DNA of 64,000 nt from Taklimakanibacter lacteus (GTDB taxonomy: Bacteria > Pseudomonadota > Alphaproteobacteria > Rhizobiales > Aestuariivirgaceae): positions 1 through 64,000 of the forward strand of contig QOZQ01000002.1 in the NCBI GenBank assembly GCA_003576695.1, given 5' to 3'. Within the stretch, counting starts at the first letter, position 1, and the number at the start of each line of letters is the position of its first letter. Of the stretch, positions 36,593 through 46,228 are shown piece by piece. The notes below the pieces were generated by a model. It made no database searches, was not told where the DNA came from, and saw nothing but the letters and a program-made list of their open reading frames with translations. Both the position numbers and the translations under genes were made by a program.

Positions 36593-37372
36593 CTACTCCT
36601 CCTCCGCCACGATGATCTCGACGCCTGCGATCTTGAGGATGCTTTCCAGCCCCGCATCGACGGGCTTCTCCGTCACCAGCCGGTCGATCTTCTCCGGCCC
36701 GCAGATCTGCAGCAGCGCATTGCGGTTGAGCTTGCTCGAATCCGCCAGCACCGTGACGGTGCGGGCGCTCTCCGCCATCGCGCGCGCCACGAAGGCCTCG
36801 TCCACGCTGTAGTCCATGATCTTGGCCGTCGAGCTGATGCTGCCCACCGCCAGCACCGCATGGTCGGCATGGATCTTCTGGATCTGCTCCACCACCTGCG
36901 CCCCCAGCGTCTCGAAGGCGTCGCCGAAATAGCTGCCGCCCATCAGGTGGATCGGCCCGCGCTGCGGCGCCTTCCACATCTCGGCCGCCACCAGCGCGGC
37001 ATTGGTGATGATGGTGAAGGGTCCGTGCTGCGCCAGCTGCTCGGCGAAGAACAGGGTGGTCGTGCCGCAATTGATCAGCAGGCTGTCGCCCGGCTCGAAC
37101 AGCTTCGCCGCTTTTTTGCCGATGCGGATCTTCTCCAGCCGCTGCCGGCCGCGCCGCTCGTCCAGCGGGCTCTCATGCGCCGACTGCGTCGCCGGCGCCG
37201 CCGTCGCCCCGCCATGGAATTTGCGCAGCAACCCTTGCTCCGACAGCAGCGCCAGGTCGCGCCGTACCGTCTCGCGCGACGTCGCAAGGTCTTCCGCCAG
37301 CTCCTCCACCGTCACCCGTTCGGAAGTCTGCACCAGCTCGAGGATCTTGCGCCGGCGGTCGGCGGGTCTCAT
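36593..37372 (-). CDS. DeoR/GlpR-family transcriptional regulator
   Basis: A 259-aa sugar-responsive repressor. The N-terminal winged helix RRRKILELVQTSERVTVEEL then ATSRETVRRDLALLSEQGLL and RKFHGGA are standard; the sensor domain has LFEPGDSLLINCGTTTLFFA and LMGGSYFGDAFETLG. The ATG at 37372 is preceded by GGGAG; an ATG five codons earlier lies within that site. Likely senses a sugar phosphate; the target is not obvious from neighbours. Confidence 0.88.
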   Translation of the reverse strand: MRPADRRRKILELVQTSERVTVEELAEDLATSRETVRRDLALLSEQGLLRKFHGGATAAPATQSAHESPLDERRGRQRLEKIRIGKKAAKLFEPGDSLLINCGTTTLFFAEQLAQHGPFTIITNAALVAAEMWKAPQRGPIHLMGGSYFGDAFETLGAQVVEQIQKIHADHAVLAVGSISSTAKIMDYSVDEAFVARAMAESARTVTVLADSSKLNRNALLQICGPEKIDRLVTEKPVDAGLESILKIAGVEIIVAEEE

Positions 37373-37552
37373 GTGTGGATCTCCCATGGCTTGTGTTCGA
37401 ACCGCAAGTTAAACCCAATATGCCTATATGGCATATTCTCTCCATGGTAGGATTACTTAGTTTCCAACGTTTTTCATCAAGCCAAATATCGGCCGTCGAT
37501 AGGTCCTTGGCCCTGTTAGCTCCTCAGAACTGAGATAGTTTCCGTTATCCCC

Positions 37553-37726
37553 ATGACTGAAGAAAGTAAGGCTGTAACAGAAGACTATCGAGTGCAGCGT
37601 CAACGCGCGGACGCACCGAAAAGTAGAGTTGACTACACCACGGCGACTTTCGATGACTGGCTCGCACAGAACGTTGCATGTTGTTTCGAAATGAAAGGTC
37701 CTCGGACGGCCTACCCGGATGCCTGA
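37553..37726 (+). CDS. Small ORF overlapping the giant helicase gene
   Basis: ATG 37553 opens a 57-codon frame (MTEESKAVTEDYRVQRQR ... FDDWLAQNVACCFEMKG) whose stop at 37724-37726 overlaps the helicase ATG (37719) by 8 bp. The helicase start itself has no good ribosome binding site, so coupling to this reading frame would explain its translation. The small protein has no signal peptide or membrane segment and I do not recognise it. It could instead be an untranslated leader; evidence is position only. Confidence 0.4.
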   Translation: MTEESKAVTEDYRVQRQRADAPKSRVDYTTATFDDWLAQNVACCFEMKGPRTAYPDA

Positions 37727-40700
37727 ACTGTCACACACGCTTCTGGCGCGATGCGTCTCGATCGACATCGAGGTCGATCCTAAGACGGCACGGATTTTCG
37801 GGCTGGCAGCTGTTTGGCGCGAGGGGGCCGAGGTAATCGCTTCGCACAAAGGGCAGCTGGATCAGGCGCTCGATCAGATCGAAGTGGCATTGTCGGATAC
37901 CACTCACCTGATCGGTCACAATATCCTACACCACGATTTGCCGCATCTAGTAGCGGTGAGGCCGCGATTGGCGGCGCTGGTTCTTTCTCCGATCGATACC
38001 CTTTGGCTGAATCCCTTGGCCTTTCCGCGCAATCCATACCACCACCTTGTGAAACACTATCAAGACGGGCGTCTGCAGGCGGGTCACATAAACGACCCGG
38101 AACTTGACGCCCGGCTGGTGTTCCAGGTTCTGGAGAACCAGCTCAGTGCCTTCCGTCAGTTGAAGGTCGAAGAGCCGGACGCCCTTTCTGCCTATCACTA
38201 CCTGACGACGCGGGCAGAGCAGGCTGGAGGGTTTGATGCGGTGTTCAGGCACGTTCGAAGCGCAGCCGCACCTTCACACGAGACCGCAGAACGGGTGATC
38301 CGGCGTCTGCTTTCGGGCCGGGCCTGCGCGCTCGGTGTCGAGCAAACGTTGGGCCGGCTGTCGAGCCCGCAGCTCGGCTGGCCCATGGCCTATGCCCTGT
38401 CCTGGATTTCGGTCGCCGGTGGGGACTCGGTTATGCCGCCCTGGGTGCGGAAGCAGTTCCCTGAGGCCGCACGGATCGTAAGAGATTTGCGGGATAGTGC
38501 TTGTGATAGTCCAGATTGCGCTTGGTGCGGGGAAAAGAATGACCCCGCCCGGGCGCTGTTGCGCTGGTTCGGCTTCGACGCCTTCCGACCGCAGCCCGTG
38601 GATGAGACGGGTCGTCCGTTGCAGGAGCGGATTGTGAAGGAAACAATGCGAGGGCGGAGCCTGCTTGGCATCCTGCCTACCGGCACGGGAAAGTCTATCT
38701 GCTATCAGATCCCAGCGCTGACAAAATTCGACAAGACTGGGGCATTGACGGTGGTGATCTCGCCCCTTGTGGCGTTGATGGCCGATCAGGTGCAGGGGAT
38801 GGAACGTGTCGGCATCTCCGCGGTTGTCACCGTCAACGGAATGTTGTCGATGCCCGAGCGGCAGGATGCACTGGACAAAGTGCGCATGGGCGACGCGGCG
38901 ATGCTGCTGATCTCGCCGGAACAGTTGCGAAGCGTTTCGGTCCGATCTGTTTTAAAGCAGCGCGAGGTTGAGCTATGGGTGCTGGACGAGGCGCATTGCG
39001 TTTCGAAATGGGGCCACGATTTCCGGCCCGACTATCGCTATATCGGGAGATTCATACGGGAGTTCTCAGGAGATGAGCCGCCCGCTCCAGTGTTGTGCCT
39101 GACCGCGACCGCCAAGCCCGATGTGGTGCGCGACATCCGCGAGCATTTCCGGTCGCGGCTGGGCACCGAACTCATACTGCTCGACGGCGGTGCGGTGCGA
39201 ACCAATCTAAGTTTTGAGGTAAGTTTGACGCAGCGGGGTACCAAGCTCGCAGACATCCTCGATGCGATCAACGCGAAGATGCCGCAGGAGGGAGTATCTG
39301 GTGCGGTCGTTTACTGCGCAACCCGTGAAGAAACCGAGCGTGTCTCAGAGTTTCTGAAACTGCAGGGCCTGTCGTCGGAACGCTTCCATGCCGGCCTGTC
39401 GCCCGAGGAGAAGCGCGACGTCCAGGAACGCTTCCGCACCGGTGATCTGAGGATCGTTGTTGCCACCAACGCTTTTGGTATGGGCATCGACAAACCCGAC
39501 ATCCGGCTGGTCGTCCACGGCGATATTCCCGGCTCGCTGGAGAACTACCTTCAGGAGGCAGGCCGCGCAGGGCGCGATGGGGCCCATGCCAATTGTGTGC
39601 TCCTGTTCGCAGGCGAAGACGTCGAGCGGCAATTCTCACTCTCCGCGCGCTCACGGCTTGCGCAGCACGAGATCGGCGCGATCCTCAAGGCAGTGCGGCG
39701 GCTCGACGAGCGGACGAAGAAGTCTGGCGAGGTCGTCGCCACTTCGGGAGAAATCGTGCGGGCAGACCGCGATCAGGAATTCGAGCGTGACAGTGCCACA
39801 GACGATACCCGCGTGAAGACGGCCATCTCCTGGCTGGAGGAGGCCATGCTGTTAACGCGCGAAGAGAACCGGGTGCGAGTGTTCCCGTCCTCCCTGCGCG
39901 TCCGCAGGCTAGAAGAGGCCAAGGCGATTGTCGACAGGGCTGCCATTACCGGTACGCGACGTACGCAGCTTGTAGACATTGTGCGGCATCTGATGAACGC
40001 TCCACCCGATGAGGGCGTCACGACCGACGAGCTTACGGGGGTAAGTGGCCTGACGGGCGGAGCGCTGAACAGAGTCATGACCGACCTCGAGATGCTCGGC
40101 ATTGCTCGCAACGATCTGGCCGTAACGGTCTTTGTCCATGTCGGGGTCGAAGGATATTCGCAGCAGCGCCGTTCTGCGGCTGCGCAACTCGAGGCCAATC
40201 TGATCACTTTGATGCGCGAGTCGGCTCCCGATGCCGAAGGCGCCGGCGGCCAGCCGTTGAATCTAGCTGAGACCTGTCAGATCCTGCGCGACAAGGGGCA
40301 TACGGCGGTACGCCCGGACATCGTCGAAAAGCTTCTGCGCGGCATGGCGCGCGACGGGCGCGATCAGGATGGTGGCAAGGGCAATGTCTGGCTCCGCAAG
40401 GTTTCGCGAAACACACTGATTGTGACACTGCAAAGGTCCTGGAATGCGCTGGAGCAGACAGCGGGATTGCGCCGACAGGGTGCGGAACTACTTCTCATGC
40501 ATCTGATCGACAAGGTGCCCAAAGGCATCCGAGGCAAAGACGTTCAAGTCGAAACCACGATGGGCGATCTTCTCGCCGCCCTGAACGGGGATGCCCTGTT
40601 ACGCGACACGGTGAAGGACATGACAAAACTCATGGATCGCGCACTACTATGGCTTCATGAGCAGGAAGTCGTAACGCTGGGAAAAGGGCTTACCGTTTTT

Positions 40701-42815
40701 CGTCCCGCCATGACGGTACATCTGAAGCCTGGCCGCGACGGCTTTACCCGGAAGGATTTCACCCCGCTTGAGGAGCATTACGCCGAGCAAACACTGCAGA
40801 CCCACGTGATGGCGGCCTACGCCGAGATGGGTCTTGCCTCGATGGACCGGGCGCTGAAGTTGTCCGAGGATTATTTCGTTATGGATCGTAATGCCTTCAT
40901 CCGCCGCTGGCTACCTGGGCATGAATCCGAATTCCGGCGACAAACCACCAGCGCCTCATGGAAGGCTATCGTCGAGGCGCTGGACAATCCAGTGCAGCAG
41001 AAGATTATTGCCGACGATCGAGAACAGACCAACGTCCTTGTGCTAGCGGGACCGGGATCCGGTAAGACTCGGGTTCTGGTCCACCGGATCGCCTATTTGA
41101 TTCGCGTGAAGCGGGAGGACCCACGCGACATCCTCGTTCTTAGCTACAACCGCCACGCGTCAGCCGAAATCCGCGCCCGCCTGCGCCATCTGATCGGTGA
41201 TGAGGCATACAGCGTCACCGTCTCTACCTGCCACTCACTCGCGATGCGTCTGGTCGGGGCGAGTTTTGCCGGCGGAGCGGCTGAAATCCAGGATTTCGAT
41301 GAGTTCGTTTTGGAAGCGGTTCGGCTCCTGAATGGCGAGGGGCTCACGAGGACCGAGGCTGAGGCGCAACGCGACACGCTGATCCAGGGGTATCGTTGGA
41401 TCTTGGTGGATGAGTATCAGGACATCGGCCCCGAGGAGTATGCCCTCATAGCCGCCATCGCGGGCAGATCACTGGACGATCCCGAACTGCGCCTTAGCCT
41501 TTTTGCAGTCGGTGATGACGATCAGAATATTTACGCCTTCGCGGGCGCGTCAGTCCACTTCATCCGCCAGTTCGAGGCAGACTACAAAGCCCGCCCCGAA
41601 TTCCTGATCGAAAACTATCGCTCGACCCAGCACATCATTGAAACCGCCAACGCAGTGATCTCCGCGGCTTCTGACAGGATGAAGGCAGGGCATGACATCA
41701 CTATCAACCGCAGGCGCGTAAAGGCCCCAGCGGGGGGCGCAATGGCGTCGCTCGATCCCGTGGCGCAGGGGCGGGTGCAGCTTCTCCAATGCCCGCCCGG
41801 CGATGTTGCACAGGCTGTCACGGCGGTGGACGAACTAGTTCGCCTGTCGCGCCTGGACGCTGACTGGAATTGGTCGCGAACAGCCATTATCGCGCGTGAG
41901 TGGCGGCGGCTAAACCCGGCGCGCGCTTATGCCGAAGCGCTTGGTATTCCGGTCCAGATGGCCAATGAGAGCCTGCCGAATATCTGGCGCCTGCGCGAGA
42001 TGCAAAGCCTGATCGCCGCATTGCGGCGCGAACCTGCGCGGCTGATGGGAATCGCCAACTTGGTCGGGGCTCTCAATCGCCTGCCACCCAATCGCTGGAC
42101 TGATCTGATTGCCGAAGGGATCGCCGCGCTGGCGCGGGAACTGGCCAACAAAACTATGCCCGTGCCCGATCTTATCGAATGGCTCGCTGAATGGGCTCGC
42201 GACACAAGAGGCGAGCAACGGGGGCTGCTCTTGCTGACCGCCCACCGCTCCAAGGGTCTTGAATTCGATGACGTGGTGATACTCGATGGCAACTGGGAGG
42301 CTTTCTCGAGCGGGGAGGACGCCGATGCACCCCGCCGCCTGTTCTATGTCGCCATGACCCGTGCACGCCGCAGTCTCGCGGTCATGGCCGCCGGCCGGCA
42401 TCCTTTTGTACAGCCGGGAGGCAACTCGATCCTGCCGCGGCAGGTGAAGCCAGAGCTGGAAGCGATTGCCGGCGACATGCCCATCTATCAGATGCCAGAC
42501 CTGAAGCTAGTCGATCTGTCCTGGCCTGGACGCCTTTTCGACGGAAATCCCGCGCTCGCGGCCATCACCGAGGCTCGCGTCGGCGATCCGATCGCGCTCC
42601 AGCCTGAGAACGGTGCATGGCTGATCCGGGATGCGAAAGGCCGGAAAATGGGCCGGTTGGCACGTAATTGGACACCGCCGGAGGGGCGCCATCTCAAGCG
42701 CGGTGAAGTAGGAGCAGTCGTTTGCTGGCGAAAGGCTGACAACAAGGAAGAATATCGCGATCACCTACGCCGCGACGAATGGGAAGTGGTATTACCAGAA
42801 TTCGTCTTCGAGTGA
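37719..42815 (+). CDS. Fusion of DEDD exonuclease-like, RecQ helicase and UvrD-type helicase domains
   Basis: A 1698-aa three-enzyme fusion. Residues about 10-190 look like a DEDD 3'-5' exonuclease (SIDIEVDP at 14-21, HLIGHNILHHDLPHL at 63-77, ELDAR near 130). A Cys cluster (C262, C267, C270) precedes a RecQ core with Walker A LPTGTGKS (319-326), DEAH 423-426, SKWGHDFRPDYR, and QEAGRAGRD (612-620), then winged-helix-like sequence. From about 1080 a UvrD/Rep helicase follows: AGPGSGKT (1110-1117), VDEYQD (1230-1235), GDDDQNIYAFAGA, ENYRST, TAHRSKGLEF (1507-1516), FYVAMTRARR. The tail may be a small beta-barrel. Probably unwinds and degrades DNA; repair or defence role is inferred. GC is lower than flanks. 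Confidence 0.88.
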   Translation: MPELSHTLLARCVSIDIEVDPKTARIFGLAAVWREGAEVIASHKGQLDQALDQIEVALSDTTHLIGHNILHHDLPHLVAVRPRLAALVLSPIDTLWLNPLAFPRNPYHHLVKHYQDGRLQAGHINDPELDARLVFQVLENQLSAFRQLKVEEPDALSAYHYLTTRAEQAGGFDAVFRHVRSAAAPSHETAERVIRRLLSGRACALGVEQTLGRLSSPQLGWPMAYALSWISVAGGDSVMPPWVRKQFPEAARIVRDLRDSACDSPDCAWCGEKNDPARALLRWFGFDAFRPQPVDETGRPLQERIVKETMRGRSLLGILPTGTGKSICYQIPALTKFDKTGALTVVISPLVALMADQVQGMERVGISAVVTVNGMLSMPERQDALDKVRMGDAAMLLISPEQLRSVSVRSVLKQREVELWVLDEAHCVSKWGHDFRPDYRYIGRFIREFSGDEPPAPVLCLTATAKPDVVRDIREHFRSRLGTELILLDGGAVRTNLSFEVSLTQRGTKLADILDAINAKMPQEGVSGAVVYCATREETERVSEFLKLQGLSSERFHAGLSPEEKRDVQERFRTGDLRIVVATNAFGMGIDKPDIRLVVHGDIPGSLENYLQEAGRAGRDGAHANCVLLFAGEDVERQFSLSARSRLAQHEIGAILKAVRRLDERTKKSGEVVATSGEIVRADRDQEFERDSATDDTRVKTAISWLEEAMLLTREENRVRVFPSSLRVRRLEEAKAIVDRAAITGTRRTQLVDIVRHLMNAPPDEGVTTDELTGVSGLTGGALNRVMTDLEMLGIARNDLAVTVFVHVGVEGYSQQRRSAAAQLEANLITLMRESAPDAEGAGGQPLNLAETCQILRDKGHTAVRPDIVEKLLRGMARDGRDQDGGKGNVWLRKVSRNTLIVTLQRSWNALEQTAGLRRQGAELLLMHLIDKVPKGIRGKDVQVETTMGDLLAALNGDALLRDTVKDMTKLMDRALLWLHEQEVVTLGKGLTVFRPAMTVHLKPGRDGFTRKDFTPLEEHYAEQTLQTHVMAAYAEMGLASMDRALKLSEDYFVMDRNAFIRRWLPGHESEFRRQTTSASWKAIVEALDNPVQQKIIADDREQTNVLVLAGPGSGKTRVLVHRIAYLIRVKREDPRDILVLSYNRHASAEIRARLRHLIGDEAYSVTVSTCHSLAMRLVGASFAGGAAEIQDFDEFVLEAVRLLNGEGLTRTEAEAQRDTLIQGYRWILVDEYQDIGPEEYALIAAIAGRSLDDPELRLSLFAVGDDDQNIYAFAGASVHFIRQFEADYKARPEFLIENYRSTQHIIETANAVISAASDRMKAGHDITINRRRVKAPAGGAMASLDPVAQGRVQLLQCPPGDVAQAVTAVDELVRLSRLDADWNWSRTAIIAREWRRLNPARAYAEALGIPVQMANESLPNIWRLREMQSLIAALRREPARLMGIANLVGALNRLPPNRWTDLIAEGIAALARELANKTMPVPDLIEWLAEWARDTRGEQRGLLLLTAHRSKGLEFDDVVILDGNWEAFSSGEDADAPRRLFYVAMTRARRSLAVMAAGRHPFVQPGGNSILPRQVKPELEAIAGDMPIYQMPDLKLVDLSWPGRLFDGNPALAAITEARVGDPIALQPENGAWLIRDAKGRKMGRLARNWTPPEGRHLKRGEVGAVVCWRKADNKEEYRDHLRRDEWEVVLPEFVFE

Positions 42816-42861: not shown

Positions 42862-43081
42862 CTCACGCTCCAGCGCACGGAGAATAGTCAGTTGCCCGCG
42901 AACTACTCTCAAGGCCTTGTTGGGGTTGAATGATCTGAGGATATTGAGGTTTTGATTTTACCGGAAAGTACGGATTGTGTGGCAGTTTTCTTGCAACATA
43001 GATTAGGGATTCTACGACTCGGCGAAGCGTGATTCTGTGGGCTGAGGCGCTTCTCCTGAGCGAGGTTAGCCCTTATTGATG

Positions 43082-43759
43082 TCACCACTCTCGCGACGAC
43101 AGGAAGGCAACAGGCGCAACAGCCTCATCCGCGAACACCGCTGCCGTCAGCACCCCGCCATAGACGCAAGCCGTATCGATATTGACACGGTTGGGTCTGA
43201 TCTCCGGGCGGGCGTGGTCGAGCGGTGTGTGGCCATGCATGATAAGTCTTCCATAATCGGCTTGCGACCGGTGGAAGCGGTCGCGAATCCACAGCAGCGC
43301 TTCCTTCGGCTGCCGGTCTAGCGGCAGATCGGGATCGACGCCGGCATGGGCGAAGAACCGTTTGCCGTCGTCGTAGGACAGGCGCAGCGATCTCATCCAC
43401 GCAACATCGCCAGCGGGCAGCTCCTGAGGATCGCGTACGCCGTAGCTCGCCAGCGTTGCGGCTCCGCCATTGCTGAGCCAGTGAGATGGGTCACCGGTGT
43501 CAATGGCGTCAAGCAGCATTTCCTCGTGATTCCCCATCAGGCAGATCACGAAATCGGGATCGTGATGTTCGAGGCTGCGAATGGCCTCAATGACGGACCG
43601 GCTGTCCGGACCACGATCGATATAGTCGCCAATGAAGACCAGCCGGTGGCTTTGCCCGTTGGCATAGTCGCGGCACTGTTTGAGGCTCTGGAGCAGCGCC
43701 CTGTGGCACCCGTGAATGTCACCGATGGCGAAGGTGAATGCGGGCTCCATGGCGGCCAT
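43082..43759 (-). CDS. PPP-family metallophosphatase (serine/threonine phosphatase-like)
   Basis: A 225-aa phosphatase with all core motifs of the PPP family: GDIHGCHRAL near residue 13, VFIGDYIDRGPDSRSV near 41, CLMGNHEEMLL near 74, and MHGHTPLDHARPEI near 175. These bind two metals and hydrolyse phosphoesters; bacterial relatives include PrpA/PrpB and ApaH-like enzymes. It converges with the helicase gene. The start at 43759 has GGAG upstream; MEPAFT at 43750 is the alternative. Substrate unknown. Confidence 0.88.
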   Translation of the reverse strand: MAAMEPAFTFAIGDIHGCHRALLQSLKQCRDYANGQSHRLVFIGDYIDRGPDSRSVIEAIRSLEHHDPDFVICLMGNHEEMLLDAIDTGDPSHWLSNGGAATLASYGVRDPQELPAGDVAWMRSLRLSYDDGKRFFAHAGVDPDLPLDRQPKEALLWIRDRFHRSQADYGRLIMHGHTPLDHARPEIRPNRVNIDTACVYGGVLTAAVFADEAVAPVAFLSSREW

Positions 43760-46126: not shown

Positions 46127-46228
46127 GTCATCCCGGCGAAAGCCGGGACCCATTGAATAAGCGCAAGCGGGCGGCGCTGCCCTGTTTGGATCGCATTCAG
46201 GGGATCCCGGCTTTCGCCGGGATGACGG
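46127..46228. repeat. GTCATCCCGGCGAAAG-family palindromic repeat
   Basis: GTCATCCCGGCGAAAGCCGG on the left pairs with CCGGCTTTCGCCGGGATGAC on the right. It occupies most of the divergent promoter region between the MocR-type gene and the Gfo/Idh gene. Confidence 0.85.

Follow-up and report, generated by a model that had tools for sequence, protein, structure and literature searches.

A mobile gene joining a DEDD exonuclease-like domain to RecQ and UvrD helicase cores in Taklimakanibacter lacteus, with a probable role in defence against foreign DNA

What might a bacterium gain from a protein that carries two helicases of different superfamilies behind an exonuclease-like domain? The question is raised by a gene found in a 64,000-nt stretch of the Taklimakanibacter lacteus genome (contig QOZQ01000002.1, positions 1 to 64,000), referred to here as the window. 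The gene, hereafter the fusion, occupies positions 37719-42815 of the forward strand as a single open reading frame (ORF) with an ATG start, 1698 codons and no internal stops, and has full-length relatives in other genomes. A first-pass annotation, made from the sequence alone, had proposed three enzyme-like modules in this one 1698-residue chain; the ORF was indeed found to be intact and both helicase cores complete. Sequence comparisons suggest the fusion to be a mobile single-gene helicase-nuclease, most likely serving host defence against phages or plasmids; the probability of this reading is put at roughly 0.6.

The RecQ part corresponds to a superfamily 2 (SF2) helicase core at residues 282-641 (38562-39641, + strand), and the UvrD/Rep part to a superfamily 1 core at residues 1085-1560 (40971-42398, + strand); both were assigned from Pfam, NCBIfam and PDB sequence matches and from alignment, the PDB matches concurring with the two assignments. 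Model TIGR00614 matched residues 299-641 with 305.8 bits (5.2e-91), exceeding its cut-off of 219.8. Model TIGR01389 scored 362.6 bits over residues 282-639, under its equivalog cut-off of 640.2, and neither an RQC nor an HRDC domain was among the 11 Pfam families that matched the window protein at E ≤ 1. By sequence, this part is thus a RecQ-family core with all its motifs, not a canonical bacterial RecQ by score. For the UvrD core, PF00580 (2e-41), PF13361 (3.5e-14) and PF13245 (7.6e-24) each passed their cut-offs, so that the fusion is assigned both the N- and the C-terminal core domains of UvrD/Rep. The RecQ and UvrD motifs listed in the first-pass annotation were all found in the sequence and are conserved among relatives; the helicase motifs, together with the DEDD tetrad described below, are retained in relatives down to about 25% identity.

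Residues 1-200 (37719-38318, + strand) probably form an exonuclease-like domain of the DEDD type with a helical extension. They were examined in two alignments, one comprising 44 rows (the window protein plus 43 homologues) and a second of 18 proteins, ten of them common to the first, from Pseudomonadota, Verrucomicrobiota, Planctomycetota, Campylobacterota, Cyanobacteriota, Bacteroidota and Deinococcota. The DEDD-like spacing reported earlier is present: an Exo I motif D16-x-E18 (37764-37772, + strand), an Exo II motif H67-N68-x4-D73 (37917-37937, +) and an Exo III motif N125-D-P-x-x-D130 (38091-38108, +). The acidic tetrad (D16, E18, D73 and D130) was unchanged in all 44 and all 18 rows. H67, D93, H108 and K112 were also invariant in the 44-row alignment, and H108 and K112 were kept in 17 and 18 of the 18 rows of the second. 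DEDD exonucleases are classed as DEDDh or DEDDy by the His or Tyr of Exo III, which acts as the general base. At the position opposite the Exo III His of DinG, the fusion family has Asn (42/44 rows) or Ser (2/44), and likewise Asn or Ser in 18/18 rows of the second set. The N-terminus thus belongs, by sequence, to neither the DEDDh nor the DEDDy subclass, and since Asn or Ser replaces the His of DinG, catalysis by this domain is not assured.

The first-pass annotation had expected an exonuclease fold over residues 1-200. Pfam matched no family to the N-terminal ~200 residues of the window protein; residues 1-290 scanned alone gave one spurious match (E 2.3) and no exonuclease family, and the Pfam family DNA_pol_B_exo1 touched 3 of the 44 family members (best E 0.03). 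A sequence profile of the N-terminal segment matched Staphylococcus aureus DinG at 5.7e-5, followed by T7 DNA polymerase (0.01) and a TREX1 homologue (0.02). The AlphaFold model of residues 1-290 had a predicted local distance difference test score (pLDDT) of 86.3 and a predicted template modelling score (pTM) of 0.85. Its Foldseek matches were led by DinG, a TREX1 homologue and Escherichia coli Pol II, with E-values of 2.1e-3 or worse and low template modelling scores. The expected fold is supported in so far as DinG was the best profile match and DEDD enzymes headed the weak fold matches, but not to the point of a firm fold match or of a catalytic His. The profile and the model together make a DEDD-type domain likely rather than proven.

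The distribution of the fusion was followed with a contig scan of one genome per species, of which the best 80 of 587 matches were kept. Among these, full-length or contig-cut relatives with 57-78% identity came from Rhodobacterales, Hyphomicrobiales and Sphingomonadales, with more distant ones elsewhere. Within the class, at least 10 of the 385 genomes scanned carry the fusion, the window genome included (E ≤ 1e-100, two candidates scored per genome). Among 40 relatives scored at 1e-150, with up to 12 candidates each, it was found in the window's own genome only, a count to be read as a lower bound; in the genus (five genomes, all candidates scored) it was again restricted to the window genome. 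In a quick tree of 40 rows, the starred branches force three changes for Hyphomicrobiales and six for Rhodobacterales, the orders being intermixed. All three modules could be read in copies from six phyla; both Planctomycetota contigs stop before the UvrD part. The genomes bearing the fusion hardly lack a RecQ: a separate canonical RecQ was present in 27 of 30, and the window genome has separate RecQ and UvrD-like genes besides the fusion.

With query coverage of 80% or more required, copies were present in 22 of 72,556 plasmid records, including plasmids of Thiothrix, Allochromatium, cyanobacteria and a Phocaeicola. Ten plasmid loci, plus three more, were inspected in detail. The product name given to the ten copies was 'RecQ family ATP-dependent DNA helicase' in nine and 'ATP-dependent DNA helicase RecQ' in one; because these annotations mostly say RecQ family helicase, the family is easily overlooked. 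On a plasmid of Nostoc sp. ATCC 53789 (NZ_CP046704.1, 99558-106048), a relative is broken into three parts, and the matched interval includes an annotated IS1634 transposase. None of the 121 matching phage records held a copy at 80% query coverage. Two full-length copies were found in IMG/VR, one of them about 7.5 kb from a terminase resembling those of Rhodobacter phages. For the IMG/VR copy L132, a full-length fusion with 69% identity, the flanking genes are a phage-like terminase and, as named by eye, an ABC-transporter ATPase; this copy is possibly prophage cargo. The horizontal acquisition suggested in the first-pass annotation is supported by the absence of the fusion from the four other congeners, its presence in at least 10/385 genomes of the class, the 22 plasmid records and the mixed orders. 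The exonuclease-RecQ-UvrD architecture is thus a widespread but rare, unnamed family, and no account of such a fusion was recognised in a full-text search of the open-licence PubMed Central literature.

In 20 genomes, the genes beside the fusion were compared with those beside the canonical recQ gene, about seven predicted neighbours being taken at each locus. These 20 belong to a group of 27 genomes in which a canonical RecQ was matched, the other seven being left out of the comparison, and genes were called by a simple script. The fusion set comprised 138 proteins, 19 of which were scanned one by one against PADLOC and the rest as a group; 139 of the 140 control proteins were scanned (L197:13496-18994 was omitted). 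At 1e-10, the fusion neighbours matched 244 PADLOC families and the recQ neighbours three: mad3 (in two proteins) and the DRT-named models RT_UG29 and RTasDnaG-like (in one each). At 1e-100, the fusion set still matched 22 families; the control count at this threshold is zero because the best control match reached only 5e-44. A PADLOC protein at E ≤ 1e-100 was present at 11 of 20 fusion loci versus none of 20 recQ loci (Fisher p = 1.5e-4, against a control of core genes only). Eight of the 19 individually scanned neighbours had no PADLOC match at 1e-10, and no recurrent partner gene was found, each Pfam family matching at most 4 of the 138 neighbours. The fusion itself had no full-length match among the best 25 of 97 PADLOC families, which matched it only partially, over the helicase cores (DpdF, PsyrT, GajB and others).

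The systems represented at the 11 loci at 1e-100 are varied. They comprise Hhe/PDC-S37 (L010 and L018), type IV restriction (L013 and L015), PDC-S06 (L023), PDC-S36 (L026), the BREX proteins PglZ and BrxL (L030), Zorya ZorA directly downstream of the fusion (L022), a CBASS cyclase (L025) and AbiP2 directly upstream of the fusion (L034), the last two placed by their coordinates; PDC-S36 is inferred for L033 from a neighbour 92.8% identical and from the count of two members for the family. At L030, a type IIG match also overlaps a neighbour of the fusion. The plasmids provide anecdotal additions: a type I-D CRISPR operon lies about 4 kb downstream of the Thiothrix copy, a type I restriction operon is one gene away from the Allochromatium copy, and toxin-antitoxin genes are found near the Rhizobium and Cereibacter copies; for some other inspected plasmid copies, the nearby annotation showed no defence-type genes. 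On a Scytonema plasmid (L215, 1-5239), a helicase-like gene, two hypothetical genes and a phospholipase D-type gene lie just upstream of the fusion, a set that we take to be reminiscent of a DISARM-like operon. Rather than being invariably core genes with conserved synteny and no link to islands, relatives are therefore patchy, mobile and often adjacent to defence genes, as the first-pass annotation had anticipated.

The window copy itself stands amid metabolic genes and has a low G+C content for its surroundings, both as described earlier: 60.7% overall and 69.6% at third codon positions (GC3), compared with a mean GC3 of 81.3% (standard deviation 6.2, lowest 64.4) for the 45 other window ORFs longer than 600 bases. 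To its left lies a glpR-like gene for a DeoR-family regulator (36593-37387), which three of the four other congeners share at 85-86% identity. In one congener (G003), what comes after the glpR-like gene is a stretch corresponding to C12:200273-206600 of the window genome (G000), where it sits about 164 kb off and reversed. Since this stretch is displaced and reversed relative to G003, the fusion lies at a rearrangement breakpoint; the comparison points to an inversion or a similar event, one boundary of which is at the fusion. The GC3 deficit and the breakpoint position are both consistent with a foreign gene in a disturbed location. A nearby transposase scar, also proposed at first, was not recovered: the ten flanking ORFs scanned gave no transposase-family match, in a search that was not an exhaustive one for insertion sequences.

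Taken as observations, the two helicase cores, the DEDD tetrad with its Asn, the patchy and mobile spread, the redundancy with RecQ and the defence neighbours of relatives form the basis of the reading proposed above. As the relatives are scattered and often lie beside anti-virus genes, the fusion is probably an unnamed one-gene defence. From these observations we infer a nuclease activity, a polarity, a trigger and a phage phenotype, along the following lines. RecQ and UvrD motors normally run 3′-to-5′ on single strands. Those of the fusion would engage invading or replicating DNA at its ends, gaps or forks, and the structure of this DNA might be recognised by the putative winged-helix region between the helicases and by the C-terminal domain. 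The two 3′-5′ motors would unwind foreign replicating DNA at its single-stranded parts and the N-terminal DEDD domain would trim the exposed 3′ strand, with the invader destroyed or abortive infection set off as the outcome. In this fuller form (an unnamed one-gene immune enzyme that plasmids and islands have carried, with all three modules, into at least six phyla, in which motors of two superfamilies are coupled to a DEDD exonuclease with Asn in place of a His or Tyr, and which destroys foreign DNA from its replication intermediates) the proposal is tentative, and held at somewhat short of even odds.

Several observations weigh against a defence role. The window copy has no defence island of its own: only mad3 and mad8 were matched, each by two of the 79 proteins encoded in the window plus the next 20 kb, and mad3 also turned up among the recQ neighbours used as a control. 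The link to defence islands made in the first-pass annotation hence holds for relatives (11/20 versus 0/20 loci) but not for the gene for which it was made, with its two PADLOC families. Because the controls were core genes, the enrichment could partly reflect that any transferred gene lands in islands; the PDC families are themselves candidates only; and the fusions of L026 and L033 are 93.5% identical, so that counting this pair once reduces the comparison to 10/19 versus 0/19 (p = 3.9e-4). The BREX-adjacent copy (L030, 10001-14467) matches from residue 210 onwards, with residues 1-209 unmatched, and by sequence its exonuclease part is missing or unrecognisable. At least four of the ten copies in the class (G073, G318, G325 and G327) are interrupted by stops or split frames, pointing to decay or sequencing error. 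Order labels cluster on the tree more than shuffled labels do (just 1-4 of 500 shuffles came out as low). One of the six Rhodobacterales changes is probably due to L045, a metagenome-assembled genome titled Exiguobacterium profundum that groups in Rhodobacterales and is probably mislabelled. In Aliarcobacter and Deinococcus plasmids, the fusion lies directly beside partition or replication genes, and plasmid copies so placed could serve plasmid upkeep. Finally, the Asn at the position of the DinG His could mean that nuclease activity is weak or absent.

Three other explanations were weighed. The main rival places the fusion in accessory DNA repair or recombination: as a bacterial counterpart of WRN or DinG, borne by plasmids and islands, it would clear aberrant 3′ ends and stalled forks, to the benefit of host or mobile-element fitness. 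RecQ, UvrD and DEDD exonucleases all act in repair, and the N-terminus gives its best profile match with DinG. The DinG of Bacillus subtilis is reported to mitigate replication stress (PMC12525004), and the partition and replication genes adjoining the Aliarcobacter and Deinococcus copies would suit a repair role too. The host, however, already has separate RecQ and UvrD-like genes, as do 27 of the 30 fusion-bearing genomes for RecQ, and a repair enzyme would account poorly for the patchy distribution and the defence-gene neighbourhood; a repair role is thus considered unlikely.

The Asn or Ser found in 44/44 and 18/18 rows where DinG has His raises another possibility, namely that the DEDD domain is a non-cutting sensor or an end-binding clamp, the protein unwinding, stripping or remodelling foreign replication intermediates. 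This would be compatible with defence. All four metal-binding acidic residues are nevertheless invariant over seven phyla, hardly to be expected of a dead enzyme, and the conserved H108 (17/18) and K112 (18/18) might, speculatively, substitute for the His; a domain that does not cut at all is rather improbable. The fusion might also be a passive hitch-hiker, a selfish or plasmid-maintenance gene piling up in hot spots of defence genes. The choice of core genes rather than other accessory genes as comparison loci leaves room for this, as does the position of the window copy at a rearranged site free of defence genes. Yet preservation of all three modules in widely separated relatives requires selection on the enzyme itself, and hitch-hiking is accordingly regarded as very unlikely.

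A candidate zinc site, C262...C267xxC270 (38502-38528, + strand), is found mainly in nearer relatives: C267 was present in 42/44 rows of the first alignment and 10/18 of the second, and distant relatives mostly lack C262, C267 and C270. Zinc binding at these residues is possible; as C267 occurs in just 10/18 rows, the site was ruled out as a hallmark of the family. The region between the helicases (residues 642-1084; 39642-40970, +) was modelled as residues 630-1092 (pLDDT 83.0, pTM 0.73). Foldseek returned no match at E ≤ 0.001 for this model, its weak matches including the Cdt1 C-terminal domain, MarR- and PadR-type regulators and the ROQ domain of Roquin, all of which we take to be winged-helix proteins; the region probably contains about three winged-helix modules. 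The C-terminal domain (residues 1561-1698; 42399-42812, +) is conserved in nearer relatives in an alignment of 34 rows. Its ~140 residues gave a best match of E 0.46 against PDB sequences, and a HIRAN-like barrel, considered for it, was supported by neither Pfam nor PDB sequences.

Two adjacent genes were considered as partners and discarded. A 57-aa ORF upstream (37553-37726), which overlaps the start of the fusion, had no convincing counterpart at the fusion loci compared (best E 0.32). A metallophosphoesterase gene downstream (43082-43759) had no full-length relative at fusion loci, its matches being to canonical-RecQ loci (L082 and L088) and to a short piece in L030. A repeat of about 150 bp at 42890-43042, just past the stop codon of the fusion, is the feature that comes closest to the transposase scar proposed at first; it has copies at G000:C4:85863-86009 (87%) and C4:72153-72305 (79%) and also in a congener. 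Further downstream, 46127-46228 is a dispersed high-copy repeat of about 100 bp, often matching on both strands, with dozens of copies across the window genome and congeners.

Where does the fusion stand among known enzymes? In the eukaryotic WRN, an exonuclease lies N-terminal to a RecQ core. The RecQ cores of WRN and the fusion match by sequence, the fusion having an added UvrD core, but a kinship of the exonuclease parts was not supported: no WRN exonuclease chain was present among 12 profile matches, nor in the 50 fold matches listed out of 332. The DinG of Firmicutes also has a DEDD exonuclease N-terminal to a helicase, and residues 1-290 of the fusion match it best, both by profile and by fold; the DinG helicase, however, is described as XPD-like (PMC12525004) and DinG has the Exo III His, whereas the fusion has RecQ and UvrD cores and an Asn. 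An account of the MrfAB/YprA family describes a helicase with a 3′-5′ exonuclease, relatives of which were recruited into defence (PMC12458937); the helicase there is YprA-type, with MrfB associated or fused, while those of the fusion are RecQ and UvrD.

Among defence systems, Nhi, unlike the fusion, presumably has a single helicase and neither a RecQ core nor a DEDD domain. It is presented as a single-gene nuclease-helicase immunity thought to be triggered by the phage single-stranded DNA-binding protein, and like the fusion it joins nuclease and helicase in one polypeptide (PMC12904381). Hna of Sinorhizobium meliloti is likewise a single effector with exonuclease-type and SF2 helicase parts: it is described as a 3′-5′ single-stranded DNA exonuclease with SF2 helicase motifs that causes abortive infection and occurs in about 2% of genomes (PMC13381803). 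According to the same source, its PD-(D/E)XK nuclease is C-terminal and its helicase a single SF2 one, whereas the fusion has an N-terminal DEDD-like domain with RecQ and UvrD. The domain set of Nhi and Hna is not shared by the fusion, as judged from their descriptions rather than from sequence comparison. Hachiman (HamAB; PMC12278908) and Gabija (GajAB; PMC10952713) also pair a nuclease with a sensor helicase in defence, but as separate proteins instead of a single chain; GajB is UvrD-like, and the PADLOC GajB models match the fusion over parts of its UvrD core only. With a domain make-up unlike that of Nhi, Hna or Hachiman, the fusion may resemble them in action while standing outside these systems, and, by analogy, the best reading is of an enzyme that acts in a similar way with different parts. 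If it is a defence enzyme, it would represent a new layout in one-gene helicase-nuclease immunity, with two helicase superfamilies and a DEDD-type domain without the usual general base, and, being compact, would serve as a model of the regulation by which cooperating motors and a nuclease spare host DNA.

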